Positions 26,966 through 54,617 of a stretch of DNA of 64,000 bases are shown piece after piece; position 1 is the stretch's first letter; each line of letters opens with the position of its first letter. Source of the stretch: Rikenellaceae bacterium (GTDB lineage: Bacteria; Bacteroidota; Bacteroidia; Bacteroidales; Rikenellaceae); the NCBI GenBank assembly GCA_015060165.1, contig SUZC01000003.1, positions 1 to 64,000 on the forward strand, written 5' to 3'. The notes under the pieces were generated by a model that was not told the origin of the DNA, did no database searches, and was given only the letters and a program-made list of their open reading frames with translations. Made by a program: the position numbers and the translations under genes.

Positions 26966-27120
26966 ACGTCATTCCACATTTTTACATCAATTAACTTTTG
27001 GTGATAATATTGCGGTCTATGTAAAAATGCTGGAATCAACCGCTTATTAAAGACCTTGCAAAGACCAATCTTTTGCTGCAAAGTCTTTCTTTGAAACATT
27101 GTTCTCTGTCAGAATGACGT
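26966..27120. repeat. MITE-like inverted-repeat element, copy 3
   Basis: ACGTCATTCC (26966) to GAATGACGT (27112-27120), inverted ends. Inside, ATTCCACATTTTTACAT pairs with ATGTAAAAATGCTGGAAT across a 45-nt loop, and a second part carries TTTGCTGCAAAGTCTTTC. Nearly identical to copies 4 (36753) and 6 (53183). Confidence 0.75.
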
Positions 27121-27299
27121 TTTTAAACAATTTTAATAATTAGCTTTTTCGGGGTAAATTCTAAGAAAATCCACCCGAAAACGCAAAAAAATCAAAAAAT
27201 TTCGTCAAAATATTTGCCCCCCCCCTAAATTTTTTATTATCTTTACATCGTGCGAAAGTATTCGTGAGAAAGAAGTGTATAACCTAAAACTAAATTATT
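27119..27299 (+). promoter_or_regulatory. Duplicated promoter cassette with poly-C spacer, copy A
   Basis: A conserved AT-rich box (27119-27161), then -33 TTTG (27213-27216), nine C (27217-27225) inside a 21-bp spacer, and -7 TATCTTTA (27238-27245, one base off consensus). Almost identical cassettes precede 37169 (36986-37168) and 53493 (53335-53492). C-tract length differs among the three. Confidence 0.7.
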
Positions 27300-27872
27300 A
27301 TGAAAAAACTACTACTTATGTTGCTCGCTGTTGCAGCGTTTGCAGGGTGTAGCAAGGAAGAGAAGCCTGACAAGCTGGGAATAGAGAGAGGTGTTGTATT
27401 CGAAGATTATATTGGTAAGGAAATTCCACCTGTTCCAGATAATATAATTGAATTATTAGCAGAATCACCTTGTTGGGAGGTGGAAAAATATGAACATGCA
27501 GATGTCATAGATGGTAAGTATTATTTTCCATCTGCCAACCCCAATTTGTTTCTTGGAATTGGTTTTGGTGGAAAAGGGTATATAAATTCAATTTTTACAT
27601 TTAATAAAGACGGCTATGCAAATATGTATTATTATGGACAAATAGGTAGGCCCTCTGAGAATAATAAAGCGAAACCTTTTATGGAAGCTTTAACGAAAGC
27701 AAAAATATCAAAGATTCTCTATTATGATGGAGAGACGATGATTTTCACTCGTTATAATGGAGATAATTCCGAACTTGGACCAGCTATTTTCTTCACAAAA
27801 CGCGGTAGCCAAGAACTTCTTGATAAGTGGGTTAAGCAGGTGGATGATTATTTAAAGAGTAAAGAGAAGTAA
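27300..27872 (+). CDS. Small lipoprotein of the repeated family (member 1)
   Basis: 190 aa; lipobox AGC in FAGCSKEEK (Cys17). The first about 50 mature residues are nearly identical to the protein at 37169 (KPDKLGIERGV, FEDYIGK, IPPVPDN), after which the two diverge. Family landmarks shared with the other four members are a Trp about 40-50 residues after the Cys (ELLAESPCW) and a later strand ILYYDGETMIF. No known domain recognised; a small beta-sheet fold seems likely. Role may be inhibitor- or surface-related (see member 2). Confidence 0.75.
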   Translation: MKKLLLMLLAVAAFAGCSKEEKPDKLGIERGVVFEDYIGKEIPPVPDNIIELLAESPCWEVEKYEHADVIDGKYYFPSANPNLFLGIGFGGKGYINSIFTFNKDGYANMYYYGQIGRPSENNKAKPFMEALTKAKISKILYYDGETMIFTRYNGDNSELGPAIFFTKRGSQELLDKWVKQVDDYLKSKEK

Positions 27873-27898
27873 AAGATTGATTGTATAGCTCGTTTCAT

Positions 27899-27930
27899 AG
27901 CCGCTGCGCCGTAAGGCGTGGCGGCTTTTT
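27899..27930 (+). terminator. Terminator after lipoprotein member 1
   Basis: AGCCGC-TG-CGCC-GTAA-GGCG-TG-GCGGCT (27899-27926) then TTTT. A near copy ends the gene at 53493. Confidence 0.85.
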
Positions 27931-27967
27931 ATGAATTACACAGCCCCCAAGTCGGGGGCTGTGACCG

Positions 27968-28996
27968 TTATTTATGTTTCTCGATGTGCGTTTGATGGCG
28001 GAAGTGGAGATACCACCTCACATACTCCTCGCAGTGGCGTTTCGAAAGGCCGCGATGTAGCGATATGTTCTCTTTGAGCTGCCCGAAGAACGACTCCAGG
28101 GCGGCTGTGGTACGAGGCACATCGGGGTGCTCGACAAATTGGAACATATTGGGCAAGGCACGCCGCAGGTGGGTGTAGGCCTTGCACACCATTCGATGCT
28201 CCTTCCACTCGATGCCCGAGGTGAAGGGGCCGCTTTTGCGGGTGACGTAATGGCGGTGTGTGGCATACCACTCCTTGAAATGGGCTATCCATTCGTCGCG
28301 TTGGGTGTGGTTGCGAATAGTGCATATACGTCCGGCCAGGCGCCGAAGCTCCTTGGCGGCGGTGCTATGCGGGAAACGCGTTATCCAGCTCTGACATTCG
28401 CGTTGAATGTGAGCCACACAGCGTTGTCGCACCACATCGGGGCACGCCTCTTCGACCGCTTGGATGATGGCGGGGCTGCCGTCGGTTGTGACGCTCTTAA
28501 TATTTACGCCGGAGTACTTGATTGTGTTGAGATCTTCGACTATTTCGCACGCTCTCTCGTCGTCGGTAATTCTGTAAAAGAGAGTTGTTTTTATGGTCTC
28601 GTCTCTGTACACTACAAGACACACCTTATTGGGGAACCAGGTACCGTCAATCGAAAGGTTAATTCCTTCCTCACAATTAAAAATCTTCCACACAGGATAC
28701 GACCGCAAATAGGTGTCGAACCATCTCGATAGCTGGCGACTGCTATGACCGCTCATCTGCGAGATCTCGGCAATAGTCTGCTTGCGTAATATCCACCACT
28801 TAAACCATATAAATCGATTGGCACTACTTACATCCTTTCTGCGCGATGTGAAACAAATGCCGCAATTTTTGCACTTGTATCGCTGATGCCCTCGCTGTCT
28901 TCCCCATTTAATCGTCTCCAAATAACCACAGTGGGGGCACCTTTTTCGCTTGGGTGCTGCCATAAAAAAACCTCTTTCGGTAAAAAGTGTACTCAA
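27968..28996 (-). CDS. Transposase with N-terminal zinc finger (IS256/Mutator-like, IS1249-type)
   Basis: 342 aa from the upstream ATG; a start at residue 12 (MAAPKRKRCPHCG) is also plausible. Zinc-ribbon CPHCG...CKNCG near the N-terminus, a helix-turn-helix (IAEISQMSGHSSRQLSRW), then an RNase-H-like DDE core with NLSIDGTWF (first Asp), SVTTDGSPA (second Asp) and TAALESFFGQLK (Glu). This matches Mutator/IS256-superfamily enzymes of the IS1249 kind. A stem CAGCCCCC / GGGGGCTG (27942-27962) lies at its 3' side. I could not find terminal inverted repeats or a target duplication, so element ends are undefined (roughly 27932-29070). Confidence 0.8.
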   Translation of the reverse strand: MSTLFTERGFFMAAPKRKRCPHCGYLETIKWGRQRGHQRYKCKNCGICFTSRRKDVSSANRFIWFKWWILRKQTIAEISQMSGHSSRQLSRWFDTYLRSYPVWKIFNCEEGINLSIDGTWFPNKVCLVVYRDETIKTTLFYRITDDERACEIVEDLNTIKYSGVNIKSVTTDGSPAIIQAVEEACPDVVRQRCVAHIQRECQSWITRFPHSTAAKELRRLAGRICTIRNHTQRDEWIAHFKEWYATHRHYVTRKSGPFTSGIEWKEHRMVCKAYTHLRRALPNMFQFVEHPDVPRTTAALESFFGQLKENISLHRGLSKRHCEEYVRWYLHFRHQTHIEKHK

Positions 28997-29269
28997 ATAT
29001 AGTGATTATTTCGCTGCGAAAGGGCAACTTTTGTTCTTTTGAGAGGAATTTGTCGGTGCAATTTAGCCGTTTTTAGTTGGTGAAATCGACACTTAAGAGT
29101 TGGTATAGGCGCGTGGTTGCGGAATCCGAATTGCACACATAAAAATTTCAGATTCGGCCTGTTGACCGGTATGTCTATATTTTAATGCGCAAAAAAAATG
29201 AATAAACAAAAAAACTTGCAAAATTATGTAAGTTTCTCGCCCTTTTTGCGACTATTATAGATAGATAAA

Positions 29270-29300
29270 TTTGACATTTGAGATTTATTCGCTACATTTG
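29270..29300 (+). promoter_or_regulatory. Promoter of the lipoprotein at 29365
   Basis: TTTG (29270-29273), 19 bp, TACATTTG (29293-29300): full consensus. Confidence 0.75.
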
Positions 29301-29364
29301 TATCAAATTGCGGGCCGTGGGCAAAATCCCTTTGTGCCGCTTATGAATTTTAAATTCAAATGTT

Positions 29365-29982
29365 ATGAGAGGATTTTTGAAAATAGCAAAATTATTATTG
29401 GTGGGAGCTTTGTGTTGCGCCTCTATGGCCGCTTGCTCGAAGGATGATGACGATAATCAGAAGACAGAGGAGCCCGATGTTGACCCGCACTACGAATTGG
29501 CTATGCTCGAGACATATTTCTATGCTACCCCGAGTGCCGATTTGTTGGAGATGGCCGATGTTAAGTGTGTGGTTACCGACTACGAAGGCAAAACCAAAAC
29601 CCACGACCTCAATAAGTACAATATGATTGAGATCACGGTGACTGCCGAGCGTCCTTTCGATCCCGACATGTATAGCGGTACTCGCTCATCGTGGATTAAC
29701 CTGCCCGTAACGGCAAAGTTTGAGATTCAGGTGACTCCTAAGTCGGGCGTCACTCCCGACCCTGAGCGCACCTACGAGGCTGCTTTGGAGATGGGTGGTA
29801 TGATGGTTGCGAATAACAACTTTGCCTACGCTCTGAGCGAGATCAAGACCTCGGACAGCTGGTCGAAGTCGCTGGTGGGTGGCGAGGGCCTCAATGAGTG
29901 GCTTGGCTCGACATTCCCACAATCGATGGGTTTCAAGTGCGAGTTTGTGAATGGCAAGTATAAGACTTCGTTGGTGAAGTAG
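29365..29982 (+). CDS. Lipoprotein of unknown function
   Basis: 205 aa; lipobox MAAC (Cys24) followed by SKDDDD, an acidic start that in Bacteroidota can act as a surface-export signal (LES-like). The remainder is a beta-rich domain without a recognised family; no Cys besides the lipid Cys region. Upstream of sppA by 90 bp in the same direction, with its own promoter. Not related to the five-member lipoprotein family in sequence. Confidence 0.7.
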   Translation: MRGFLKIAKLLLVGALCCASMAACSKDDDDNQKTEEPDVDPHYELAMLETYFYATPSADLLEMADVKCVVTDYEGKTKTHDLNKYNMIEITVTAERPFDPDMYSGTRSSWINLPVTAKFEIQVTPKSGVTPDPERTYEAALEMGGMMVANNNFAYALSEIKTSDSWSKSLVGGEGLNEWLGSTFPQSMGFKCEFVNGKYKTSLVK

Positions 29983-30072
29983 CAGGGAAGCGCGGAGCGC
30001 AAAGTCGGAACGTTTGGGAACAAATGTGATATATTTTTGAGAGTTAAGAGGGAAACAGAATCAAAAAACTAT

Positions 30073-32088
30073 ATGGAAGAGAATAAAATTAATCAAGGGG
30101 CCAATGAGGCATCCGAGATTGTAAAGGAGCAGCCCGAGCAAGTGAAGGATCAGGCCGCAGAAATTGTAAAGGAGCAAGCAGCCGAGCAGGTGAAAGAGCA
30201 GCCCGAGCAGCCAAAGGAGCAGGCCACAGAGCCTGCAAAGGAGCCAGTAGCGGCAGCTCCCGTAGCAGCATCGGCTAAACCCAAAGCCAAAAAGGCAAAG
30301 GCCGGCAAGGGTGGAGCATCGTTTGGTAAAATATTTTTGGCGGCATTGTTGGCTGTTCTGGCAGGTGGAGTGGTTACATCAATCTTCTTTGCAATCCTAT
30401 TCTCGGGATTCTCGGCATTGATGCAGCCTACGCAAACAACTATTCCAGAGAGCGCAATCTTGCGTATTGATTTAAGCGAGAACTTGGTTGAAGCACCCAC
30501 AAAAGACCCAATGGCGATGTTCGACTTCGCTTCGATGACTACCAGCGGAGAGCTTACGCTCTACAACGCTCTGCGTGCTATCGAGAAGGCATCGACCGAC
30601 GAGCGTATCAAGGGTATCTATATCAATCTAAACGGTGCCGGCTCGGCATCGATAACCTCATTGGAGGAGTTGCGCGCCGCTATCGAGACATTCAAGCAGA
30701 GTGGTAAATTTGTGGTTTCATACAACGAGGTTTATTCTCAGATTGCATACTACTTCTGCTCGGTGGCAGACAAAATCTTTATCCAGCCCGAGGGTTCATT
30801 CGAATGGAAGGGTTTGTCGGTTGACAATATGTTCTTCAAGGGCTTAATCGATAAGTTGGGTATCGAGGTAAGTATCTTACGCCCTACGGTTTGTAAGTAT
30901 AAGAGTGCCGTTGAGCCATTCTTCCTGACAAAGATGTCTGACGCCAACCGCGCACAAAACCAGCAGTTGGCCAACACTATGTGGGGTATTATTACAGAAG
31001 CCGTATCGAAATCGCGTGGCATAAGCGTTGAGGCACTCAATAAATTGGCCGACGATTTGGCTATTACTCTGCCTTCGGAAGCCGTTGAGCATAAGTTTGT
31101 CGATGCTACATTGTATGCCGACCAAGTAGAGGAGCTCTTCAAGAGCGAGTATGGCATCGAGAAGCCCGAGTACGTATCGTTGGGCGAATACGCTTCATCA
31201 CTCGTTCCAAATGCCGCGAAAGCCGCAGCTCCAAAGGTGGCTATCGTCTATGCACAGGGTGATATTGTTGATGGTAGTGGTAGCGACGACAATATCTATG
31301 GCTACACACTCGCCAAGACCATCAAAGGTGTGGCCGAAGACGACGACGTGAAGGCTGTTGTGTTGCGTGTCAATTCAACCGGTGGTAGTGCTTTGGCATC
31401 GGATATCATCTGGCGCGAGATAAAGCTCTTGCAGCAGAAGAAGCCTATTATCGTATCGATGGGTCACACCGCAGCCAGCGGTGGATACTACATTTCAGCT
31501 CCTGCCGACGCAATCGTTGCAGACAAGTTCACGCTCACAGGTTCAATCGGTGTGTTTGGTATGTTGCCAAGCTTTGGTGCAGCTTTGGAGAAGAATTTGG
31601 GTGTTACAATCGACGGTGTTACAACCAACAAATATTCAAGTATGGGCAATGGATTCTCGCCCCTTGCAGCTCAGGAGCATCAGGCACTTATGCGCGGTGT
31701 GGATAGAGTATATGAGCGTTTCACTTCGCTTGTAGCCGAGGGTCGTAACCTCACAATCGAGAAGGTATTGGAGATTGCCGAGGGTCGCGTTTGGACAGGT
31801 GTCGAGGCGCAGCAGAACGGTTTGGTTGACACTTGCGGAGGCATTACTGCCGCATTGGCAATTGCAGTAGAGAAGTCGGGCTTGGGCGATAACTTCCAAA
31901 TCGTGGAGGTTAAGGAGGAGCTCACAGGCTTTATGGCAATGTTGGAGAGCCTCAACGTGAGGATTCGCGCAGCATTTGCCCCACAAGGCGAGATTGGCGA
32001 ATTCTATAAACAATACAAACGAATCGAGAATATGCTCTCGAAGAAGGATATCTACACATACTGCCCCTACATCTATCGTGTTGAGTAA
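30073..32088 (+). CDS. sppA: Signal peptide peptidase SppA, 67K type
   Basis: 671 aa from ATG 30073 (an in-frame TTG at 30037 is within a promoter-like TATTTTTG and is rejected). Cytoplasmic N-tail of about 75 residues rich in Glu/Gln/Lys repeats (KEQPEQ, KEQAAE) and Ala/Pro, then one membrane segment (FLAALLAVLAGGVVTSIFFA, about residues 85-115), then the duplicated S49 domain. The catalytic Ser lies in HTAASGGYYIS of the second half; the Lys partner is in the first half. Degrades signal peptides and damaged membrane proteins. The long repetitive N-tail is an unusual addition. Terminator at 32119. Confidence 0.93.
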   Translation: MEENKINQGANEASEIVKEQPEQVKDQAAEIVKEQAAEQVKEQPEQPKEQATEPAKEPVAAAPVAASAKPKAKKAKAGKGGASFGKIFLAALLAVLAGGVVTSIFFAILFSGFSALMQPTQTTIPESAILRIDLSENLVEAPTKDPMAMFDFASMTTSGELTLYNALRAIEKASTDERIKGIYINLNGAGSASITSLEELRAAIETFKQSGKFVVSYNEVYSQIAYYFCSVADKIFIQPEGSFEWKGLSVDNMFFKGLIDKLGIEVSILRPTVCKYKSAVEPFFLTKMSDANRAQNQQLANTMWGIITEAVSKSRGISVEALNKLADDLAITLPSEAVEHKFVDATLYADQVEELFKSEYGIEKPEYVSLGEYASSLVPNAAKAAAPKVAIVYAQGDIVDGSGSDDNIYGYTLAKTIKGVAEDDDVKAVVLRVNSTGGSALASDIIWREIKLLQQKKPIIVSMGHTAASGGYYISAPADAIVADKFTLTGSIGVFGMLPSFGAALEKNLGVTIDGVTTNKYSSMGNGFSPLAAQEHQALMRGVDRVYERFTSLVAEGRNLTIEKVLEIAEGRVWTGVEAQQNGLVDTCGGITAALAIAVEKSGLGDNFQIVEVKEELTGFMAMLESLNVRIRAAFAPQGEIGEFYKQYKRIENMLSKKDIYTYCPYIYRVE

Positions 32089-32118
32089 GAACCAACCATA
32101 AGACAATTAGCATAGTGA

Positions 32119-32158
32119 ACCCGAGGAGTCCCGTGATGGTAGCCTCGGGTATTTTTTT
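32119..32158 (+). terminator. Terminator after sppA
   Basis: ACCCGAGG (32119-32126) / CCTCGGGT (32143-32150), then T7. Confidence 0.85.
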
Positions 32159-32262
32159 GCCTAATGGTCTGCTTGGGCAAAAGCGATAGGAATTCAAGAT
32201 TCAAAATTATATTCCCGCCCGAAGGCCAATTTTTAATTCTGAATTCCCCTCGCCCATCTCAA

Positions 32263-32306
32263 ACGTTTTTAAACAATTTTAATAATTAGCTTTTTCGGGG
32301 TAAATT
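32263..32306 (+). promoter_or_regulatory. Conserved upstream box before the C10 protease
   Basis: About 44 bp nearly identical to the first part of the lipoprotein promoter cassettes (27119, 36986, 53335) and similar to 34424. Here the following promoter sequence differs and lacks the poly-C tract. A TAATTTTG (about 32394-32401) could be the -7. Confidence 0.55.
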
Positions 32307-32463
32307 CAATGTTTTTACACTGAATTTTGCGAAATTATACACTGGATAAAAAAAATATTTGGCCAAATTATTGTGCGAATGAGAAATTGTAGTTAATTTT
32401 GTAATGTGCGAAAGATTATTGTGAGAGAGAAACTTTGAGTATTTAATTTAAAATTAAAAAAAT

Positions 32464-33771
32464 ATGAAAAAGCTTTTAAATTTTTCTCTGGCAATAATTG
32501 CGGTAGCTTTTGTTGCCTGCTCTTACGAAGATGTAGCATTGTCTACAAATGAAAGTCCCTCAAATCCTTACGAGGTTACACCCGATGAGGCCGTTCAGTT
32601 GTTGCAGACTGTAATGGGCGGAGAATCTACCCGAGCCATATCTGTTGGCTCGATTCAAACCCTGAGAAAAAGTGATTTTGTTCCCACCACTCGCGGAGCG
32701 GAGGATGGAGATGTTGTCTACATTGTCGATTTGGAGGATGGCGGAAGTGCTATTATGGGCGCCGACAAACGTATGGAACCCATCTATGCTATTCTCGATG
32801 AAACAAAGATTTCTCCCGAACAATTAACACTCTCTGCTACTCGCTCAGACGATGGCGAGCAGGATATCGAGGAGTATGTGATGGGGTTGGTGAATAATAA
32901 GATACAAGTAGATGTAATGGGTTTTGAGCATACGCTTCCTGAAATGCCGATGATTCCAAGAGACCAAACTTGGACAGAAACTACGGTAATTGGTCGTCAG
33001 TCCCCTTTGCTTAGAACAAAATGGGGGCAGGACCATCCGTTTAATTTGCGTTTTCCTTTGATTGATAACTGTGTGTTCAACCGAGAGTTTGCAGGGTGTG
33101 TGACAGTTGCAGTTGCACAAATTATGTGTTATAATAGATTTCCCAATCTTGTGGGTAATCGAGCTATTTCATGGAATTTAGCAAGTCAATATGATTTTGA
33201 AAACACTTCCCCATCTGATGATGTTATAAATGCAGTTGCATGGCTTATGTGGGCAGTTGCATTGGAATTACCTGCAGATTGGGGTGGTACGGATACTCGT
33301 GATGATGGAACAGCTTCAAGTATAGAAGATGCGGCTGCATTAATGACAAGACATGGATATTATAGTGTGCAAATTATCAACGAACTTAATACAACCGTAG
33401 TAATTGATATGTTATGCGATAGGGAGCAGCCCGTTTATATTAGGGGTAGAAGTGAGGTCGATGGAGAAAGTGCATATCATGCGTGGCTTATTGATGGGTG
33501 TAATGTTTATAAAGAAGATTTCTGGGTTAGGCATTATATAGATTCTTTTAGGTTTAACGAATATATAGAAAATACAAAAGAATATAATTTATTGCATTGT
33601 AATTTTGGTTATGAAGGGAGATGCGATGGTTATTACTCTTCAGGGTTATTCAAATTATATCCAGCTCCTAGCTTAGATGATGAATATATTGATAGTTCTG
33701 TTGGTGATTTGCCAGGTAGTAAATATGAAAATTATGCATCTGATTTTAAAATAATGGTATATGATTTATAG
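32464..33771 (+). CDS. C10-family (streptopain-like) cysteine protease, lipoprotein
   Basis: 435 aa. Lipobox VAC (Cys19). Residues 20-170 form a propeptide-like region; the catalytic domain has Cys212 in NREFAGCVTVAVAQIM and His339 in AYHAWLIDG, with the HCNFGYEGRCDGYY block near residue 380, where most relatives have Trp (HCNWGW). Family members (SpeB, PrtT, Bacteroides Bfp/Btp) are secreted as zymogens and cut after removal of the propeptide. Here membrane anchoring is predicted. The lipoprotein gene 10 bp downstream is in the place where C10 inhibitor genes sit in other species. Confidence 0.85.
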   Translation: MKKLLNFSLAIIAVAFVACSYEDVALSTNESPSNPYEVTPDEAVQLLQTVMGGESTRAISVGSIQTLRKSDFVPTTRGAEDGDVVYIVDLEDGGSAIMGADKRMEPIYAILDETKISPEQLTLSATRSDDGEQDIEEYVMGLVNNKIQVDVMGFEHTLPEMPMIPRDQTWTETTVIGRQSPLLRTKWGQDHPFNLRFPLIDNCVFNREFAGCVTVAVAQIMCYNRFPNLVGNRAISWNLASQYDFENTSPSDDVINAVAWLMWAVALELPADWGGTDTRDDGTASSIEDAAALMTRHGYYSVQIINELNTTVVIDMLCDREQPVYIRGRSEVDGESAYHAWLIDGCNVYKEDFWVRHYIDSFRFNEYIENTKEYNLLHCNFGYEGRCDGYYSSGLFKLYPAPSLDDEYIDSSVGDLPGSKYENYASDFKIMVYDL

Positions 33772-33781
33772 TAGATAAATT

Positions 33782-34348
33782 ATGAAAAGAATTCTATTTA
33801 TGATGCTCGCCGTTGTAATGTTTGCAGGGTGCAGCAAGGAAGATGAAAATCAAAATCAGTTGGAAAATATTATCCAATCGATGGGCCAAAGCCAACTCTC
33901 TGCTATGGATATTATGAAATCAGCCGAGTGTTGGCAGGTAAAAATCATATATCAATATACCGAGGCTGGTGGTAAGGGTGATAGTAAATTGTATTACGAC
34001 CCTGAGAATATGAAATTGGAAGGAGGAAGTCGAGGCGCGAATTACAGAGTAGCCGATGGTAATTTTTATGAATTGCGCTCTCACCCTCTAAATTCTTATC
34101 CATACTATTATACTTATGCCCTTTCTGGTGCTGGCAATAGTTTTTCACTTGTTCGCAAGCACGATAGCCTTGTTAAAACAATGAATATTGTGGCATACGA
34201 CGATAAGAGTATGGTTATAGAATTTTACAATCCTGCCATAAAGGAGTATCCCTACTCGCGAGAGTATGTTGTCCGTTGGAGTCCGAGCGATGAATATTGG
34301 GATATGTTAACAGCCTACGAGGATTTGCCAGAAGATGAAAGACCATAA
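33782..34348 (+). CDS. Small lipoprotein of the repeated family (member 2), possible C10 protease inhibitor
   Basis: 188 aa; lipobox FAGC (Cys17). It starts 10 bp after the C10 protease stop and must share its transcript. Family landmarks: SAECWQVKI, EAGGKGD and the strand NIVAYDDKSMVIEFY. In streptococcal and Bacteroides C10 loci a small protein encoded next to the protease inhibits it; position and size make that role plausible here, but no sequence match to Spi or Bfi/Bti proteins can be claimed by eye. Terminator follows at 34363. Confidence 0.7.
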   Translation: MKRILFMMLAVVMFAGCSKEDENQNQLENIIQSMGQSQLSAMDIMKSAECWQVKIIYQYTEAGGKGDSKLYYDPENMKLEGGSRGANYRVADGNFYELRSHPLNSYPYYYTYALSGAGNSFSLVRKHDSLVKTMNIVAYDDKSMVIEFYNPAIKEYPYSREYVVRWSPSDEYWDMLTAYEDLPEDERP

Positions 34349-34362
34349 TTTGAATTTTAAGG

Positions 34363-34393
34363 CCGCCGCCTGAAAAAGGGTGGCGGTTTTTTT
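34363..34393 (+). terminator. Terminator after C10/lipoprotein operon
   Basis: CCGCCGCC (34363-34370) / GGTGGCGG (34379-34386), one G-T pair, then T7. Confidence 0.8.
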
Positions 34394-34423
34394 GAATTTT
34401 GAATTCCCCGCGCCCAACCCAAA

Positions 34424-34558
34424 ACGTTTTTGAATAATTTCAATAATCGGCTTTTTGGGGGTGGCGATTTTTTTATGAATAAGAGGGGTGGCGTTGGTTA
34501 TAACTTGTGTGGAGATAAGTGCTTTGCGTACAATTTTAGTGAATATTTATTACCTTTG
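34424..34558 (+). promoter_or_regulatory. Upstream box and promoter of the M13 peptidase
   Basis: 34424-34462 is a diverged copy of the conserved upstream box. TTTG (34523-34526), 24 bp, TACCTTTG (34551-34558) is the likely promoter, with a rather long spacer. No gene is seen in 34394-34641. Confidence 0.45.
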
Positions 34559-34641
34559 TGCCGCAATTGCGGAGTTTGCGCCGTGGCGAAGGACGCCGTA
34601 TATTGGTTTACATCATTGTAGATTTTTGAAAAACAATAAGA

Positions 34642-36675: not shown

Positions 36676-36707
36676 TCGAAGGAATTGAGAATTCAAAATT
36701 GGTTAAA

Positions 36708-36744
36708 TATCCTGTCTAACATCGAGTTAGGCAGGATATTTTTT
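36708..36744 (+). terminator. Terminator after M13 gene (repeat-associated hairpin)
   Basis: TATCCTG (36708-36714) / CAGGATA (36732-36738) plus inner CTAAC / GTTAG, then T6. Copy of the hairpin at 26921. Confidence 0.8.
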
Positions 36745-36752
36745 ATATAAAT

Positions 36753-36988
36753 ACGTCATTCCGCATTTTTACATCAATCAACTTTTGGTGATAATATTGC
36801 GGTCTATGTAAAAATGTCGGGAAGGTTGCGATTAAGGTGAGAGCAGAGTATGTTTGCATACTTTGCCGAACCGTAGCAACCAAAAGCCGCGAACGCGGAT
36901 TAATCAACCGCTTATTAAAGACCTTGCAAAGAACAATCTTTTGCTGCAAAGTCTTTCTTTGAAACATTGTTCTCTGTCAGAATGACGT
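36753..36988. repeat. MITE-like inverted-repeat element, copy 4, with about 86-bp insertion
   Basis: ACGTCATTCC (36753) to GAATGACGT (36980-36988). Relative to copy 3 it carries extra DNA at about 36817-36902, which has its own inverted repeats: GCAGAGTATG (36843-36852) / CATACTTTGC (36857-36866) and CCGCG-AA-CGCGG (36887-36898). Confidence 0.75.
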
Positions 36989-37168
36989 TTTTAAACAATT
37001 TTAATAATTAGCTTTTTGGGGGTAAATTCTAAGAAAATCCACCCGAAAACGCAAAAAAATCAAAAAATTTCGTCAAAATATTTGCCCCCTCCCCTAAATT
37101 TTTTATTATCTTTACATCGTGCGAAAGTATTCGTGAGAAAGAAGTGTATAGCCTAAAACTAAATTTTT
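36986..37168 (+). promoter_or_regulatory. Duplicated promoter cassette with poly-C spacer, copy B
   Basis: Box 36986-37028; -33 TTTG (37081-37084), spacer of 22 bp opening CCCCCTCCCC (37085-37094), -7 TATCTTTA (37107-37114). About 95% identical to copy A; here the C tract is interrupted by one T. Confidence 0.7.
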
Positions 37169-37732: not shown

Positions 37733-37749
37733 AATTATAGACTGATTGT

Positions 37750-37778
37750 CGCCACCTTTCGGGGTGGCGGTTTTTTTT
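37750..37778 (+). terminator. Terminator after lipoprotein member 3
   Basis: CGCCACC (37750-37756) / GGTGGCG (37763-37769), then T8. Same stem as at 62806 and 59991. Confidence 0.85.
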
Positions 37779-37824
37779 ATGCCTATAATCTTCGATTATC
37801 AATTTTTGTTTCACGAGCGTCGAG

Positions 37825-37855
37825 TTATCAACAAAATCGGAGGTTGTTAACAACC
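37825..37855. promoter_or_regulatory. DnaA-box-like site and 14-bp palindrome upstream of dnaB
   Basis: TTATCAACA (37825-37833) is one base from the DnaA box TTATCCACA. GGTTGTTAACAACC (37842-37855) is a perfect palindrome. A TATTTTTG (37899-37906) could be the dnaB -7. A single near-match to a DnaA box is weak evidence. Confidence 0.3.
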
Positions 37856-44282: not shown

Positions 44283-44323
44283 CGAAACAGAGTAGAAAAC
44301 GAGAATATTATCGTAAGAAGTTA

Positions 44324-45418: not shown

Positions 45419-45456
45419 GGCCAGAATGAGAATTAGGCAGTAGCGCAGGCATCGTT

Positions 45457-45494
45457 GGTGTGAGTTAAAGAGAACCGGTGTGAGTTAAAGAGAA
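45457..45494 (+). repeat. 18-bp direct repeat between ftsQ and ftsA
   Basis: GGTGTGAGTTAAAGAGAA at 45457-45474 and again at 45477-45494, 20-bp period. No obvious role; may be slippage-derived. Confidence 0.7.
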
Positions 45495-45514
45495 GAAAAA
45501 CAAGAAAACAAGAT

Positions 45515-47059: not shown

Positions 47060-47095
47060 TAGAGCTTCTTAGAAACGATTTGAATATTTTTCGAG

Positions 47096-48418
47096 ATGGA
47101 AGATTTGATGAACGAACTCTCGATGCCCAAGCAGGCATCTTCAATCATAAGTGTAATCGGTGTTGGTGGTGCCGGTGGTAATGCCGTAAACCATATGTGG
47201 AACACCGGTATCAAGGGTGTGAACTTCTTGGTCTGCAACACCGATCAGAAGGCGATGGATAATTCGCCCGTGAAGGATAAAATCCGTCTGGGTAAAGATG
47301 GTCTGGGTGCAGGTAACGATCCTGAGCGTGGCCGTGAGGCAGCTATGGAGTCGCTCGAGCAGATTAAGCAGTATATCGAGGCATCGGGCACCCGAATGAT
47401 TTTCGTCACCGCAGGAATGGGTGGTGGTACAGGTACAGGAGCCTCACCTGTGATTGCCAAATTGGCGCACGAGATGGGATTGCTTACTGTGGCTATCGTT
47501 ACTTCTCCACTTGTTATCGAGGGTCCGGCTCGTTGCGAGCAGGCAGCACGCGGAATCGAGGAGATCAAGAAGTATGCCGACTCGTTGCTTGTAATCAACA
47601 ACGACAGCATCCGCGAGATGTACGGTAAGCTCTCACTCCCGCAGGCATTCCGTAAGGCCGACGATATCTTGGCAATGGCTACAAAGGGTATCGCCGAGCT
47701 TATCACCGTCGAGAGTGCTTATGTGCGTGTCGACTTTGCCGATTTGGAGCGTGTGATGAAGGGTAGTGGTCGTGCCCATATGGGTGTGGCTTCGGCCGAG
47801 GGCGAGGGCCGTGCTTTGGAGGCTGCCCGTCGTTCTCTCTGCTCACCACTTTTGGACAGTAACCTGATTGCTGGTGCTAAAAATGTGCTTATCAATATCT
47901 CGGCTGCCGATATCGATAGCGTAAGCTACGATGAGACGATGGAGATTTTGAATTATATCCAGAGCTATGCAAGTTATAAGGATGAGGATGGTATTGAGCA
48001 TCGTGCCAACCTTATCTGGGGAGCAAGTTCGAAGCCTATGGGCGAGAATGTAATCGAGGTAGTTGTTGTGGCGACAGGATTCAGTGCCGATGAGTTTATC
48101 CCTCGCGCTATGCCTCCTAAGATTGAGATAGCGCTTCCTGAGGAGCCGGAGACCGAGGAGGAGATTATCTCTACGTTGGAGCCTGCCAAGAAGCCACTCG
48201 ATGCAGCACCTCGCGCACCTCACGCTTCGATGCCTGCAATTTTGGATCGTCGTCCTTCGAAGTATGCCAATTTGGAGGCCGAGTTGCGCATCCCATCGTA
48301 CCGCCGCCGTAATGTGGAGCTTGTTGTGGAGAACGACGGCACTGCACGTCGCAAGGAGGTATTCCGCGATGAGCAGGAGCAGGAGCCCACAATCAATACA
48401 GGCGAATTGTTCAAGTAG
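47096..48418 (+). CDS. ftsZ: Cell division protein FtsZ
   Basis: 440 aa tubulin-like GTPase. N-terminal GVGGAGGNAVNHM, tubulin signature GMGGGTGTGASP, T7-loop region. A disordered linker (about residues 335-395) leads to the C-terminal peptide LRIPSYRRR, the FtsA/ZipA-type contact site, here followed by about 35 extra residues. An inverted repeat GGTTGC (48452) / GCAACC (48472) follows with a weak T run. Confidence 0.97.
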   Translation: MEDLMNELSMPKQASSIISVIGVGGAGGNAVNHMWNTGIKGVNFLVCNTDQKAMDNSPVKDKIRLGKDGLGAGNDPERGREAAMESLEQIKQYIEASGTRMIFVTAGMGGGTGTGASPVIAKLAHEMGLLTVAIVTSPLVIEGPARCEQAARGIEEIKKYADSLLVINNDSIREMYGKLSLPQAFRKADDILAMATKGIAELITVESAYVRVDFADLERVMKGSGRAHMGVASAEGEGRALEAARRSLCSPLLDSNLIAGAKNVLINISAADIDSVSYDETMEILNYIQSYASYKDEDGIEHRANLIWGASSKPMGENVIEVVVVATGFSADEFIPRAMPPKIEIALPEEPETEEEIISTLEPAKKPLDAAPRAPHASMPAILDRRPSKYANLEAELRIPSYRRRNVELVVENDGTARRKEVFRDEQEQEPTINTGELFK

Positions 48419-48506
48419 CTTGCAGCTCGAAAGGGCGCATTAAGTGATAAGGGTTGCCCAACATCAGTTGAGCAACCTTGTTATGTAAAATATAAACAAC
48501 GAAAAT

Positions 48507-49814
48507 TTGGAAGAGTTGGCAATTACATATTTGGGTTTTGCCCCCGAGGTCGGTATTATGCTGGTGGTGATGATTCTGCTGCTTATGATATCGGCGTTGG
48601 TGTCGGGTTCTGAGGTGGCATTCTTCTCGCTATCGCCCAGCGAATTGCAGCGGATGCGCGAGAAACCCGATGCGCGGGATAGTCAGATTCTTGCACTATT
48701 GGCCGATGTCGATAAACTGTTGGCTACGATATTGGTTACCAACAATTTGGTAAACATCTGTGTCGTTATCATCTCGTCAAACATCATGGATAGGCTCTTT
48801 GTGTTCAATCGCTTTGAGTTCCTGTTCAAGACGGTGCTTGTGACCTTCTTGTTGCTGCTCTTTGGTGAGATTCTGCCCAAGGTACTTTCACAGGGCAATC
48901 CGCGCGGATTTGCCCGTATGGTGGTCTATCCGGTGAAGTTCTTTGGTTGGATTACTTCGCCGTTGTCGTATGTGTTGGTGCGTACGTGTGGCCGAATAAG
49001 CCGTTTTGCAACGCGTAATGCCGAGATTTCAATGGAGGAGTTGGCCGATGCGGTCGATTTGGCTAAGGGCTCGGCGCAGTCGCAGCAGGAGCATCAGATG
49101 CTGGAGGGAATTGTCAATTTCGTAAATACCGAGGTCGAGGAGATTATGCGTCCGCGAATCGATATCGTGGCTTTGGAGATTACGGATACTTTCGAGCAGG
49201 TGAAGCGCACTATTATAGAGTCGGGTTATTCGCGAATTCCTATCTACGATGAGGATCTGGATAATATCAAGGGCGCACTCTACGTGAAGGATCTTTTGCC
49301 GCATATCAATTCGGGCGATGAGTTTGGTTGGCAACAACTTATCCGCAAGATTTACTTCGTTCCCAAGCATAAGAAGATTGACGATTTGTTGCGCGATTTC
49401 CAGGAGAACAAGATTCACGTCGCTATTGTGGTCGACGAGTATGGAGCAACGCAGGGATTGGTGTCGCTGGAGGATATCCTGGAGGAGGTCGTGGGCGAGA
49501 TTTCCGATGAGAGCGATGTGGAGGAGTCGTTCTACGAGCGTCTGAACGCCAACACCTACATCTTCGATGGTAAGACCCACATTGTCGATTTCGAGCGTGT
49601 GGTCGATTTGGGAGAGGATATCTTTGCCGATGTGCAGGGCCGTGCCGAGACGCTGGCAGGATTGATGTTGGAGCTACGCCGTGACCTCTTGAAGAAGGGC
49701 GATATGGTCGAGGCTCACAATATACGTTTTACGGTAAGCAAGATGGATGGCCGTCGTGTCGACAAAATCAAGGTCGTTGTGGGCCATTCTGCAGGTTCAA
49801 ATCAGGAGGAGTAA
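48507..49814 (+). CDS. gldE: GldE-like CNNM/CBS-domain membrane protein
   Basis: 435 aa from TTG 48507; no ATG is available before residue 18, and an in-frame stop at 48486 limits the start. DUF21/CNNM membrane domain (ISALVSGSEVAFFSLSPSEL), a CBS pair (about residues 210-330, RIPIYDEDLDNIKGALYVKDLL), and a C-terminal CorC/HlyC domain. GldE is associated with gliding/type IX secretion in Bacteroidota, but homologues are frequent in non-gliders, where an ion-transport role is likely. Overlaps the next gene by one base (TAATG). Confidence 0.85.
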   Translation: MEELAITYLGFAPEVGIMLVVMILLLMISALVSGSEVAFFSLSPSELQRMREKPDARDSQILALLADVDKLLATILVTNNLVNICVVIISSNIMDRLFVFNRFEFLFKTVLVTFLLLLFGEILPKVLSQGNPRGFARMVVYPVKFFGWITSPLSYVLVRTCGRISRFATRNAEISMEELADAVDLAKGSAQSQQEHQMLEGIVNFVNTEVEEIMRPRIDIVALEITDTFEQVKRTIIESGYSRIPIYDEDLDNIKGALYVKDLLPHINSGDEFGWQQLIRKIYFVPKHKKIDDLLRDFQENKIHVAIVVDEYGATQGLVSLEDILEEVVGEISDESDVEESFYERLNANTYIFDGKTHIVDFERVVDLGEDIFADVQGRAETLAGLMLELRRDLLKKGDMVEAHNIRFTVSKMDGRRVDKIKVVVGHSAGSNQEE

Positions 49815-50413
49815 TGGACAACTCACTATCGCTAAGCCTGCCCGAGGGGTTACTCGTTGTTGAGCCTATCGGGTCGCTGGCAAGCCTGGAAGAGGAGGCT
49901 ACGTTTGCCGATCGAGCGTCGCTTGAGGGCATAACATCGTCTGCGCGCCGAGCTGAACGATTGGCGTGGCGAAGGGTGCTGCGTAGGGTCGAGGGCGAGG
50001 CGTGCGAAGTTTTCTATACGGAGCAGGGGGCACCCTGCCTGAAAAATTCCCATTATCAACATATCTCGGTGTCGCATTGTGCCGACTTGGTGGCTGTGGT
50101 GTTTGCGCAGTCGCCTTGCGGGGTCGATGTGGAGCGTGTGGAGCGTAATTTTGAGCGTGTGGCACGTCGCTATGTCTCGGCTACCGAGCAGGCTCTTGTG
50201 ACCGGAAAATGCGATTTGGCAGCCATCTGGTGCGCCAAGGAGGCTATCTATAAGTTGATGGGCCGCGTGGGGGTCGATTTTGTTAGGGATATAGAGATTC
50301 TATCGATTGACTTCCCGCAGGGCGAGATTGTGGCCCGGGCGAGCGATATAGGCGAGATTAGACTGGGATTGATGCAGCCTGATTCGGAACATATATTGGC
50401 CTATACAAAATAA
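49814..50413 (+). CDS. 4'-phosphopantetheinyl transferase superfamily protein
   Basis: 199 aa, Sfp-like. It transfers the 4'-phosphopantetheine arm of CoA to carrier proteins. Motifs: CGVDVERVE (Mg ligands Asp/Glu) and AAIWCAKEAIYKLMG (the W-x-x-KE-x-x-x-K block). The start codon shares its A with the gldE stop, indicating coupled translation, as known for gldE-pptase pairs in Bacteroidota. Confidence 0.88.
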   Translation: MDNSLSLSLPEGLLVVEPIGSLASLEEEATFADRASLEGITSSARRAERLAWRRVLRRVEGEACEVFYTEQGAPCLKNSHYQHISVSHCADLVAVVFAQSPCGVDVERVERNFERVARRYVSATEQALVTGKCDLAAIWCAKEAIYKLMGRVGVDFVRDIEILSIDFPQGEIVARASDIGEIRLGLMQPDSEHILAYTK

Positions 50414-50434
50414 CGGAGCTGCATATATATACTA

Positions 50435-50486
50435 AAAAATTGCATATTATTGCACGCGGACTCCGTTTTGCATATATGCAATTTTT
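50435..50486 (+). terminator. Terminator after the gldE operon
   Basis: AAAAATTGCATAT (50435-50447) / ATATGCAATTTTT (50474-50486). Stem ends in T5; nested CGGA/TCCG pairs lie in the loop region. Confidence 0.7.
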
Positions 50487-50660
50487 ATATGCTGCGGGCT
50501 AATTTTTCCCAACAGAAAGTGTAGCTTTTTTGTGGGGTGGTGCGACTATATTTTAGCAGGGTTTCCTTCATAGCACTATGTGTTAATGAAGACGGCAGTC
50601 GAAGAGTGATAGCATATAAGTGAAGAGAGACAATAACAGAGAATAAAATATATCAGTTGT

Positions 50661-51584
50661 ATGGATATTTTACAAATCGAAAACGTCACGAAACGTTATT
50701 CAAAACATACGGCACTCGACAATGTGTCGCTTAGTGTGCCACGAGGCTCAATCTACGGATTACTGGGCCCCAACGGTGCAGGAAAGACCACGCTTATCCG
50801 CGTAATCAATCGTATCACATTGCCCGACCAGGGTCGTGTGATATTCGATGGCAAGCCCATCACTGATGAGGATATCTACCACATCGGCTACCTGCCCGAG
50901 GAGCGTGGATTGTATAAGAAAATGAAGGTCGGCGAGCAGGCTTTGTTCTTTGCTCGCTTGAAGGGATTGTCACGCCGTGAGGCTCTTACTCGCCTGAAAG
51001 AGTGGTTTGTACGTCTCGGTATCGAGAGCTGGTGGGATAAGAAGGTTGAGGATCTGTCGAAGGGTATGGCCCAGAAGGTACAGTTCGTCACTACGGTGCT
51101 GCACAACCCTAAGTTGCTCATTTTCGATGAGCCATTTTCGGGTTTCGACCCCATCAATGCCAACATTCTCAAGCAGGAGATTCTGCGTCTGCGCGATGAG
51201 GGGGCAACGGTGATCTTCTCGACCCACAATATGGCCAGCGTTGAGGAGATTTGCGACCACATCACTCTCATCAACAAGTCGCACAACATTCTCTCTGGTT
51301 CGGTCGATGAGCTTCGTCACCGTTTTGGCGAGAATGTGTTTGAGGTTACCTATGGTGGTCAGAGTGCCGATTTCGAGGCTGCGATGGCTCCGTTGGCCGA
51401 CCTGATGGGTACGGTTGAGGTGGCCGATACTCCCTACCACACTTCGCGTATTCGCTTGAAGGACGATGCCACTGTACGCCAGAGCATTGCTATGGCCAAC
51501 GATAGCGTCGAGCTGCGTTCGTTCCGCGAGGTGATGCCGAGTATGAACGACATATTTATTCGTGCCGTCGAAGGAACTTTGTAA
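50661..51584 (+). CDS. ABC transporter ATP-binding protein (ABC-2/NatA type)
   Basis: 307 aa. Walker A GPNGAGKTTLI, signature LSKGMAQKVQ, Walker B LLIFDEPFSGFDP and H-loop STHNMASVE. Pairs with the permease 22 bp downstream to form an ABC-2 exporter; NatAB-like Na+ or drug/lipid export is possible, substrate unknown. Confidence 0.93.
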   Translation: MDILQIENVTKRYSKHTALDNVSLSVPRGSIYGLLGPNGAGKTTLIRVINRITLPDQGRVIFDGKPITDEDIYHIGYLPEERGLYKKMKVGEQALFFARLKGLSRREALTRLKEWFVRLGIESWWDKKVEDLSKGMAQKVQFVTTVLHNPKLLIFDEPFSGFDPINANILKQEILRLRDEGATVIFSTHNMASVEEICDHITLINKSHNILSGSVDELRHRFGENVFEVTYGGQSADFEAAMAPLADLMGTVEVADTPYHTSRIRLKDDATVRQSIAMANDSVELRSFREVMPSMNDIFIRAVEGTL

Positions 51585-51606
51585 TTAACCGTTAAACTCA
51601 ATAGCG

Positions 51607-52920
51607 ATGAATAAGATTGGAATCATTATAGCTCGTGAGTTCAACGAGCGAGTTCGTAAAAAGTCGTTTATCATTACGACTATACTTATGCCGGTGTTGA
51701 TGATCGGTATGATGGCAGCACCCACGCTGATGATGCTCTTTGCCAAGGGCGAAACCAAGGAGTTGCTGGTTATCGACCAGAGTTCGCTCATAGCACCCAA
51801 CCTCGAAGGCGATGGAGAGCTTGTCTTTATCCCCTCGACCGAGAGTTTGGAGCAGGCCCGTGCCAACCAGGATGTCTTTGGAGTGTTGTGGATAGGCGAG
51901 GATATTGTCGATAACCCATCGAATGTGAAACTCTACACCAACTCCTCATCGTCGATGTCGCTCGAGGAGAATATCTCGTCGCAGATGGAGCGAATCATCG
52001 AGCACGAGCGTCTGCAACGCTACGATATCGAGAATCTGGAGCAGATAATGAAGGATGTGAAGGTCAACGTTACCCTCACTAACTTCCGTAACGACCTGGC
52101 CGAGGAGGGCAAGGACGAGGAGGCTACTTCGTCGGTGATTGCTTACCTGCTGGGATTGGTGTTGGGTATGATGCTCTATATGTTCCTGATTATTTACGGC
52201 TCGATGGTGATGACCTCGGTTATCGAGGAGAAGGGTAGCCGCGTGCTGGATGTGCTGGTGTCGAGTGTGAGCCCATTCCAGTTGATGATGGGTAAGATTT
52301 TGGGTGTGGCTGCTGTGGCTGTGACTCAGATTGCTATCTGGGGCGTGCTGGTGTGTGGCTTGGGTTCGGCTTTGCTGCCGGCGTTGATGCCGCAGGATGT
52401 GATGCAGAGCGTCGAGGCGGTGCAGGCAGGCGCTATGACCTCGGCACAGGCAGGCATCGATGCCGATATGCTCTCGGCAATCTCGTTTGCTACCGATACA
52501 GGTCGCCTGGTGATGATGTTCGTGTGGTTGCTCCTCTTCCTGGTGGGTGGTTTCTTGTTCTACTCGGCAATGTTTGCTGCCGTAGGCTCGGCTGTCGACT
52601 CTATTCAGGATGCCAACCAGTTGCAGACCCCTATTACTGTGCCTATCATCTTGGCGCTCATCCTGGCTATGTCGGTCTTCAACGACCCCAACTCGCCACT
52701 CGCATTCTGGGGCTCGATTATACCGCTCACATCGCCTGTTGTGATGATGGCCCGCATTCCGTTTGATATTCCTACATGGCAGATTCTGCTCTCGCTGGTG
52801 TTGCTCTATCTGTCGGTTGCCGGTATGGCGTGGGTGGCAGGCAAGATATACCGAGTGGGAATATTTATGCACGGCAAGAAACCTTCGTTCAAGGAGTTGC
52901 TTTCGTGGGTTAAGCAGTAA
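51607..52920 (+). CDS. ABC-2 type transporter permease (NatB-like)
   Basis: 437 aa. One N-terminal membrane helix (SFIITTILMPVLMIGMMAA), a large extracytoplasmic domain (about residues 55-165), then five or six further helices starting at VIAYLLGLVLGMMLYMFLII with the family motif SVIEEKGSRVLDVLVSSVSPFQ. Forms the channel for the ATPase encoded just before it. Confidence 0.92.
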   Translation: MNKIGIIIAREFNERVRKKSFIITTILMPVLMIGMMAAPTLMMLFAKGETKELLVIDQSSLIAPNLEGDGELVFIPSTESLEQARANQDVFGVLWIGEDIVDNPSNVKLYTNSSSSMSLEENISSQMERIIEHERLQRYDIENLEQIMKDVKVNVTLTNFRNDLAEEGKDEEATSSVIAYLLGLVLGMMLYMFLIIYGSMVMTSVIEEKGSRVLDVLVSSVSPFQLMMGKILGVAAVAVTQIAIWGVLVCGLGSALLPALMPQDVMQSVEAVQAGAMTSAQAGIDADMLSAISFATDTGRLVMMFVWLLLFLVGGFLFYSAMFAAVGSAVDSIQDANQLQTPITVPIILALILAMSVFNDPNSPLAFWGSIIPLTSPVVMMARIPFDIPTWQILLSLVLLYLSVAGMAWVAGKIYRVGIFMHGKKPSFKELLSWVKQ

Positions 52921-52949
52921 TTGGAATTCAAAATTCAAAATTGGTTAAT

Positions 52950-53165
52950 CCTCTGTCTGATGTCGAATCAGGCAGAGGATTTTTGTATTGAGTCAAAGTA
53001 ATCATAAAACAGTCGTAAGACTGCTGTCTGATGTCGAATCAGGCAGAGGATTTTTGTATTGAGTCAAAGTAATCATAAAACAGTCGTAAGACTGCTGTCT
53101 GATGTCGAATCAGGCAGAGGATTTTTGTATTGAGTCAAAGTAATCATAAAACAGTCGCAAGACTG
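52950..53165. repeat. 71-bp tandem repeat, three copies, each with a terminator hairpin
   Basis: Unit starts TGTCTGATGTCGAATCAGG at 52954, 53025 and 53096 (period 71). Each holds CTGTCTGAT...ATCAGGCAG then T5, so the first copy (52950-52984) ends the ABC operon and two more terminators follow. A single diverged unit is at 59772-59850. Confidence 0.85.
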
Positions 53166-53182
53166 CGTCATTTATTTATATA

Positions 53183-53334
53183 CATGTCATTCCACATTTT
53201 TACATTAACCTACTTTTGGTGATAATATTGCGGTCTATGTAAAAATGCTGGAATCAACCTTTTATTAATGACCTTTCAAAGAACGACCTTTGCTGCACAC
53301 TCTTTCTTTGAAACATTGTTCTCTGTCAGAGTGA
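53183..53334. repeat. MITE-like inverted-repeat element, copy 6
   Basis: Begins CATGTCATTCC and ends near GTCAGAGTGAT; internal stem ATTCCACATTTTTACAT / ATGTAAAAATGCTGGAAT. Directly followed by promoter cassette C. Confidence 0.7.
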
Positions 53335-53492
53335 TTTTTTAAACAATTTTAATAATTGGCTTTTTCGGGGTAAATTCTAAGAAAATCCACCCGAAAACGT
53401 AAAAAAATCGTCAAAATATTTGCCCCCCCCCCTAAATTTTTTATTATCTTTACATCGTGGGAAAGAAGTGTGTAACCTAAAACTAAATTATT
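53335..53492 (+). promoter_or_regulatory. Duplicated promoter cassette with poly-C spacer, copy C
   Basis: Box 53335-53377; -33 TTTG (53419-53422), ten C (53423-53432) within a 22-bp spacer, -7 TATCTTTA (53445-53452). Shorter than copies A and B by two small deletions (before the -33 and after the -7). Confidence 0.7.
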
Positions 53493-54617
53493 ATGAAAAA
53501 ACTACTACTTATGTTGCTCGCTGTTGCAGCATTTGCAGGGTGTAGCAAGGAAGAGAATGTCATCTTATCGGAGGGCGATAAGATAACTCGAAGTATCGAG
53601 CAGATAAATACCCCATTATTGTCAGTATTGCAGAGTTATCGATTCTGGGAGGAGTCAAGGACATTTGCCTACACCGAGCCTGATGGTAAGGGAGAGGAGA
53701 TAGCGGTGTTCGATGCGGCCAAGGTAGCCAGCTCCGAGGGGGTTGATTACAAGCAAGACCCTTGGGGTAATTGGCAACCTTACGAGGTGTTGTCGTACCG
53801 TGATGATCAGTTTGTGAAGTATATCCCAATGACCAAGCGAGTAAGGACATATCACTATTACGATTTCGATATTGTCGATTTTGAGGATGGGATATTTACA
53901 TTTACTCGCAATTCAGAGGAGTACTATCTAAAGGTTTTGGCATACGATAATAATAACTTGTGGATTGAGACCAACTGTTATGATAAGGATAAGAATTATC
54001 AGAAGGAGTTTGGTCGAGCCGATTCGTATCCCTATGTGAGAATTCTTTATACGGGCTTGCCGGAAAAGTCGTATCCGCTTGAGGGATGGGCATCGGAGGA
54101 GGAGATAACTCCTTTCGAGGTTGGGTATCCTGTTGTGTTGCCCGAGAATTTCTTTGATATTGCTGAAGATGCTCCAATTTGGAAGGCGACTAAAAGCTAT
54201 TCTCTTGTGTATGATAGAGATAATGTTATGTTTGGTAAAAATCTCGTCGTACATAAAGCTCTAGGTGAGAAGCCTTGTGTCGAGAACTTTGATCCTAAGA
54301 GGGGTTATTCTTGGTACAAATTTGTGGATGGAACATTCTACAAGATATCATACGAGCTAAAAGCAATTGGTTTTGGTGTGGTTCAACCTTGTTTGACGAT
54401 AAGTAAATGTGATAATCCTTTTAACTTCCTGTTGGGTATAACGGAGAATAATCAGATAATAATTTCAGAGAGAGATTATAAAGTCTTAATAAACGAGCCT
54501 TATTATCAGTCGGGCGATTTCAGAGAGTTAACCTGTTATTATCTTTCTGAGGGTACGGAAGAGGATATTGAGCAAATAAAGCAGTTGCTTGAAGATCCTG
54601 ATATTAAAAAAGAGTAA
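53493..54617 (+). CDS. Lipoprotein of the repeated family (member 4), two-domain version
   Basis: 374 aa, twice the usual family length. Signal and lipobox (Cys17) are identical to member 1. Two copies of the family domain can be read: first with SYRFWEESRTFAYTEPDGKG and KVLAYDNNNLWIETN; second, from about residue 225, with AEDAPIWKATKSYSLVY and LLGITENNQIIISE. The linker is LPEKSYPLEGWASEEE. Domain copy 1 most resembles member 2 (downstream of the C10 protease). Function unknown. Confidence 0.7.
   Translation: MKKLLLMLLAVAAFAGCSKEENVILSEGDKITRSIEQINTPLLSVLQSYRFWEESRTFAYTEPDGKGEEIAVFDAAKVASSEGVDYKQDPWGNWQPYEVLSYRDDQFVKYIPMTKRVRTYHYYDFDIVDFEDGIFTFTRNSEEYYLKVLAYDNNNLWIETNCYDKDKNYQKEFGRADSYPYVRILYTGLPEKSYPLEGWASEEEITPFEVGYPVVLPENFFDIAEDAPIWKATKSYSLVYDRDNVMFGKNLVVHKALGEKPCVENFDPKRGYSWYKFVDGTFYKISYELKAIGFGVVQPCLTISKCDNPFNFLLGITENNQIIISERDYKVLINEPYYQSGDFRELTCYYLSEGTEEDIEQIKQLLEDPDIKKE

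Follow-up and report, generated by a model that had tools for sequence, protein, structure and literature searches.

Poly-C tracts in the promoter spacers of duplicated lipoprotein cassettes in a Rikenellaceae bacterium: candidate slippage switches

Introduction

Could a run of C residues inside a promoter spacer serve as a slippage switch for surface lipoproteins in the Bacteroidales? The question is raised by three predicted lipoprotein genes in the window (the whole 64,000-nucleotide stretch of Rikenellaceae DNA that was analyzed). The original prediction held that gain or loss of one C in their promoters could switch promoter strength, and that this would differ from the phase variation usual in the order, most of which works by DNA inversion. 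On the latter point it agrees with a 2025 review, which, in the sections available, names inversion or invertases for Bacteroides wherever it names a mechanism (PMC11868660). For slippage in the phylum a single remark was found, which concerns a B. fragilis polysaccharide gene with a run of C (PMC3090145, in part), and a search of the open-access literature, with most subscription journals outside its scope, found no report of a homopolymer spacer promoter in Bacteroidota. The spacer type itself is known from Neisseria meningitidis, where, in the available text of two papers, opc, porA and fetA carry a homopolymer between the -35 and -10 elements; that of opc is poly-C, and the gain of one C (11 to 12) raised Opc expression (PMC2791445, PMC3447861).

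Results

Three near-identical cassettes with C tracts in a promoter-like spacer

The three upstream cassettes, the promoter-like elements within them and the genes that follow are listed here.

27119..27161, + strand: cassette core (43 bp), copy A, exact match
36987..37029, + strand: cassette core, copy B, 1 mismatch
53335..53377, + strand: cassette core, copy C, 1 mismatch
27213..27245, + strand: poly-C spacer promoter A; TTTG 27213-27216, C9 27217-27225, 12 nt, TATCTTTA 27238-27245; spacer 21
37081..37114, + strand: poly-C spacer promoter B; TTTG 37081-37084, C5TC4 (CCCCCTCCCC) 37085-37094, 12 nt, TATCTTTA 37107-37114; spacer 22
53419..53452, + strand: poly-C spacer promoter C; TTTG 53419-53422, C10 53423-53432, 12 nt, TATCTTTA 53445-53452; spacer 22
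27300..27872, + strand: gene A, predicted lipoprotein, 190 aa
37169..37732, + strand: gene B, predicted lipoprotein, 187 aa, paralogue of A (49% identity)
53493..54617, + strand: gene C, predicted lipoprotein, 374 aa; residues 39-198 predicted lipocalin-like barrel

The tract is enclosed by TTTG and TATCTTTA in each of the promoters (C9 in A, C5TC4 in B, C10 in C; spacers 21, 22 and 22 bp), exactly where the original prediction had placed it. The pattern TTTGCCCCCNCCCN{10,15}TANNTTTR has 3 matches in the window and 0 in 100 dinucleotide shuffles, and the only two plus-strand runs of at least nine C in the window are those within promoters A and C. One G9 (54675-54683) is also present, 34 bp before a canonical-looking promoter at 54717. 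From the end of the -7-like box to the ATG of the predicted lipoprotein gene the distance is 41-55 bp for the three window promoters. Promoters of the Bacteroidota primary sigma factor start transcription about 7 nt downstream of the -7 box.

The nearly identical upstream cassette that had been claimed for the three genes is borne out: copies A and C (at 27 kb and 53 kb) differ by 5 substitutions in 217 aligned bases, and copies A and B (27 kb and 37 kb) by 7 in 241. By this similarity the window cassettes are duplicates. With the cassette as query, the genome (23 contigs, 2.19 Mb) yielded a fourth copy beyond the window, on contig C19 at 7684-7839, which reads TTTG-C8-GAAAAAAATTATG-TAACTTTA with a 21-bp spacer and precedes a 341-aa predicted lipoprotein gene; six shorter matches fall in the upstream part of the cassette. 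No other species yielded the long cassette: 69 of 180 genus genomes gave matches to it, but beyond the genome under study these are short stretches (best 65 bp, 86%).

The 43-bp core also occurs at 32265-32307 of the window, ahead of a C10 peptidase gene starting at 32464, and at position 65026 of contig C14. A different module stands behind the core at 32265, so that one core is followed by two different modules, as if upstream blocks were mixed and matched. Just upstream of cassette C, a 71-bp unit is repeated three times in tandem (52953-53166, 99% matches), and the same unit lies upstream of the core on contig C6 (L005). The C10 peptidase gene (32464-33771) encodes a Spi-type inhibitor domain; behind it, at 33782-34348, comes a relative of gene C, likewise a predicted lipoprotein, and the two are a possible protease-inhibitor pair.

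Predicted lipoprotein genes behind the promoters

The four predicted lipoprotein genes have in common a 5' cassette that continues through the signal peptide, and their bodies differ. The short genes A and B are alike beyond the signal peptide too, and the 374-aa and 341-aa genes have little in common past it. They carry signal peptides with a lipobox; matches to the lipoprotein-anchor profile were below its cut-off. Gene A has a low-confidence structural model (pLDDT 63), whose matches to lipocalin-like folds are not significant. Gene C is 98% identical to a protein named Alistipes sp., and by transfer of that name the genome is taken as an Alistipes. Among the relatives of gene C, the poly-C layout precedes 4 of 9 loci in its own genome and 0 of 13 loci in 11 other genomes.

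The layout recurs in a few genomes

In all, five genomes yielded 19 distinct poly-C spacer promoters: 4 in the genome under study (G000), 1 in Alistipes sp. RGIG1682 (G053), 6 in Alistipes sp. RGIG7366 (G088), 3 in Alistipes sp. RGIG7730 (G093) and 5 in uncultured Bacteroidales SI.B16 bin 204 (G268). The pattern TTTGC7N{8,20}TANNTTTR gave 14 matches in 6 of 250 family genomes, against 1 for the backwards control. Twelve of the 14 were convincing (G000 3, G053 1, G088 7, G093 1), the seven in G088 being six loci, as two contigs overlap there by 141 bp; the matches in G209 and G229, with no same-strand gene at the usual distance, were read as chance and left out. Relaxing the pattern to C5 in 180 genus genomes gave 39 matches in 23 genomes (control 5) and gained the interrupted window copy B and a C5GC5 tract in G093; 25 of the 39, outside G000, G053, G088 and G093, were left out. 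About 14 of those left out are a TTTGCCCCCG-N8/9-TATCTTTG-like element with a 14- to 15-bp spacer in other Alistipes genomes (L086, L087, L089, L091, L099, L102, L105 and others), which looks like a separate dispersed promoter-like repeat; the remainder are scattered.

A scan of one genome per species (84,980 species) returned 30 stretches, 13 of them in four genomes (G088 7, G053 1, G093 1, G268 4); the other 17, with spacers of 17-22 and from many phyla, were left out, as were three matches in viral contigs. Two of the 17, in Bacteroidota metagenome genomes (L148 and L169), pair TTTG-C8 with a spacer of 18 bp ahead of a secreted protein and are possible further members. When the five genomes were searched together, there were 18 matches (control 0), and a fifth G268 copy, with C6, was gained. 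Across 393 genomes of the order the only matches were those in the genome under study and one site in G290 (control 0), and the G290 site was rejected as a poly-C promoter for its terminator-like hairpin. Since one terminator-like site is all that the order adds to the genome's own, the layout is, by these searches, rare and lineage-specific.

G268 is likely a bacterium of another family than Alistipes. In an RpoB tree, read with a midpoint root only and with the misframed rows G197, G186, G005 and G198 left out, it splits with four other-family genomes from the Alistipes family (support 100/99). Its RpoB is 72.6% identical to that of G000, compared with 77-83% for other genera of the Alistipes family; RpoB was not found in G093, G180 and G195.

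The genes behind the promoters differ among these genomes. In G088, G053 and G093 they belong to a family of secreted proteins 281-321 aa long; of four that were tested, one matched DUF3857 above cut-off. Searching 180 genomes with the family headed in G088 found it in 10 (9 places in G088, 6 in G093, 2 in G053 and 0 in G000), and inspection of these places revealed CTTG-C14 in G093. Four of the five genes in G268 share the motif MKK.ANLLVCAFL..SLASC; of two tested, one has Big_2 and the other BACON plus leucine-rich repeats. Judged from Pfam and the 180-genome protein search, with the G268 proteins set apart by Pfam content, the secreted proteins or lipoproteins behind the promoters thus form three sets that are apparently unrelated.

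Tract length, flank length and total spacer

Over the 19 sites the spacer is 21 bp at 14, 22 bp at 3, 19 bp at 1 and 25 bp at 1, and the tracts range from 6 to 14. All tract comparisons are between paralogues or between species, and all of the genomes concerned are draft assemblies in many contigs. The one-base difference between tracts A and B is the only internal indel in 241 bp, and C8 versus C6 at two G268 loci (L179 and L184) is the only internal indel in 233 bp. Tracts A and C differ by one C (9 and 10), and those copies have two larger indels outside the tract, at short direct repeats. Within G093 alone the tracts are C8, C5GC5 and C14; the C14 copy has CTTG instead of TTTG and lies at a contig edge. 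Other sets are uniform or nearly so: in G088 the tract is C9 at each of the six distinct copies, and in G268 it is C8 at four of five. The tract of copy B is probably stable because a T interrupts it.

Tract and flank compensate one another. In different genomes, the flank is 13 nt where the tract is C8 and 12 nt where it is C9; over 10 distinct, not phylogenetically independent combinations, the Spearman correlation of tract and flank length is -0.96, and the number of sites summing to 21 has a permutation p of 0.016, related sites again not being independent. This compensation therefore argues that total spacer length is under selection.

How do these spacers compare with those of other promoters? 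The published motif of the Bacteroides primary sigma factor, sigma-ABfr, has TTTG and TANNTTTG-like boxes (PMC7366714, in part). The genome under study has 389 TTTG-TANNTTTG pairs (backwards control 93), a count of TANNTTTG boxes that excludes the window -7 boxes, which end in A, not G. Among the first 100 pairs listed of the 389, spacers of 19 and 20 bp are dominant (28 and 21 pairs), 21 and 22 bp are found in 4 and 5, and 23 bp in 11, the last an indication of noise in the counts. The window spacers exceed the dominant 19-20 bp by 1-3 bp.

Apparent gene exchange behind the promoters

At one poly-C locus shared by G053 and G088 the flanks are alike (91% upstream, 89% downstream) and the genes are different. 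The first G053 gene there is 97% identical over 1226 bp to a gene at another poly-C locus of G088; the second differs. The left boundary of the identical stretch lies between -24 and +104 of TTTG. Taken together, this swap-like locus and the sharing of 5' cassettes in G000 and G268 suggest that gene bodies have been exchanged behind poly-C promoters.

Other long C tracts and inverted repeats

G000 has 14 C runs of at least 8: one of length 8, nine of 9, three of 10 and one of 11; the G9 at 54675-54683 of the window is among them. A random run process would put about three-quarters of them at length 8 (P 8e-8), and the series does not fall off as it would by chance. Because 11 of the 14 lie outside TTTG-Cn promoters, the tracts in this genome need not all be switches; eight of nine non-promoter tracts examined are outside any ORF of at least 80 aa. 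A TGATAATCAG-like motif lies no more than about 10 bp from a C9/G9 or C10 tract at L014 and L016 in this genome and at L046 in another Alistipes.

An invertible promoter was considered for the window sites and rejected, as near-perfect inverted repeats do not surround the promoter. The one pair that flanks the tract is A/T-rich, 18 nt long and 78% complementary, and it is present in copies A and B but not in C; other pairs do not enclose the tract. For a four-stranded G/C structure of the ordinary intramolecular form, a single run is too short.

Discussion

We lean toward the view that the poly-C tracts are slippage switches, of the spacer type of Neisseria opc and porA placed on a Bacteroidota promoter. 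The arrangement looks like such a switch because a run of 8-10 C would set the promoter 1-2 bp past its optimum. A TTTG / TANCTTTA pair whose spacer starts with poly-C stands ahead of four predicted lipoprotein genes, and replication slippage in the tract would take the spacer back and forth between 21-22 bp, which is over-long and likely weak, and the 19-20 bp that is usual. Loss of one or two C would give 20 or 19 bp, and each gene would be switched independently. Such a scheme supposes that the primary sigma factor uses the two boxes, that a spacer of 21-22 bp makes the weak state, that cells of one population differ in tract length and that these differences serve surface diversity. Promoter A (21 bp) would then be low and one C from on, promoter B (22 bp) low, with its T as a lock, and promoter C (22 bp) off, and the C6 copy in G268, with its 19-bp spacer, would be an on state.

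The idea that a C gained or lost works as a promoter switch is therefore upheld in part. In its favor, the tract does lie in a promoter-like spacer past the usual length, the lengths differ between near-identical copies and the layout recurs before other secreted families. Against it stand the T in copy B, the relatives of gene C elsewhere that lack the tract and the window -7 boxes ending in A. The strongest counter-evidence, on present comparisons, is that G088 has C9 throughout and G268 has C8 at most of its sites; this fits a fixed 21-bp geometry. A genuine switch can look stable, as the opc tract did not change among 89 colonies of a mismatch-repair-proficient strain in the available text of that study (PMC3447861).

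That fixed geometry is the main competitor, though we consider it rather unlikely: a class of long-spacer promoters in which 21 bp with a C tract is the working arrangement, perhaps with a DNA-twisting activator, and in which length differences are neutral or mark decayed copies. It would account for exactly 21 bp at most of the sites despite C8 and C9 with different flanks, and for the uniform sets just mentioned. Spacers of 19, 22 and 25 bp nonetheless exist, also between close copies, the interrupted tracts indicate that C is not required at every position, and the other promoter-like pairs of this genome hardly use 21 bp. It is less probable still that the tract is inherited baggage: it would have spread along with a duplicated 5' cassette whose main role is to provide homology for gene-body exchange, and its length would have no regulatory effect. 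The duplication of the cassette together with the signal peptide and the G053/G088 exchange behind one such promoter are what this would predict, but the layout stands before apparently unrelated gene sets, with different flanks and in distant genomes, and tract and flank lengths compensate. Homopolymer assembly errors are a very improbable source of the length differences. The five genomes are indeed drafts in many contigs, with the C14 tract at a contig edge; yet the interruptions by T (copy B) and by G (G093) are base changes, different flank lengths are not homopolymer miscalls, and C6 versus C8 is a two-base difference.

The proposed switch borrows features from several known systems. As in opc, porA and fetA, a homopolymer lies between two promoter-like elements, here by sequence only; unlike in Neisseria, the promoter type is TTTG / TANNTTTG and several genes of one family carry the tract. 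The sites resemble sigma-ABfr promoters in their TTTG and TANNTTTG-like boxes, and differ in boxes that end in A, in spacers of 21-22 bp rather than the 19-20 bp dominant in the genome, and in a poly-C, not AT-rich, spacer. With the invertible promoters of Bacteroidales they share the order and a proposed on-off control of surface products, whereas the proposed change here is a one-base slip without bracketing inverted repeats. The variable lipoproteins of mycoplasmas are a paralogous set, each with its own repeat in the promoter. These contingency loci are alike in having paralogous lipoproteins with a repeat in their own promoter; combinatorial switching is a mycoplasma feature, and the 2025 review, in its available sections, names combinatorial lipoprotein variation in mycoplasmas (PMC11868660).

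A broader and more tentative proposal, which we hold as possible rather than probable, is that some Bacteroidales have a two-layer diversity system: plug-in cassettes for secreted proteins and lipoproteins, each with its own slippable poly-C promoter, and gene bodies exchanged between the promoters. It would have arisen on at least three protein families and in two bacterial families, and would work through slippage of homopolymers, whereas the order is known for promoter inversion.

Metagenomic reads that already exist would allow a direct test at the 19 sites of the five genomes. If the slippage reading is true, these tracts would be a natural experiment on the tuning of a Bacteroidota promoter by its spacer length, through a one-base change of the kind that inversion finders would miss. 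Gut bacteria known for their DNA-inversion switches would then also use homopolymer slippage, in their own promoter type.
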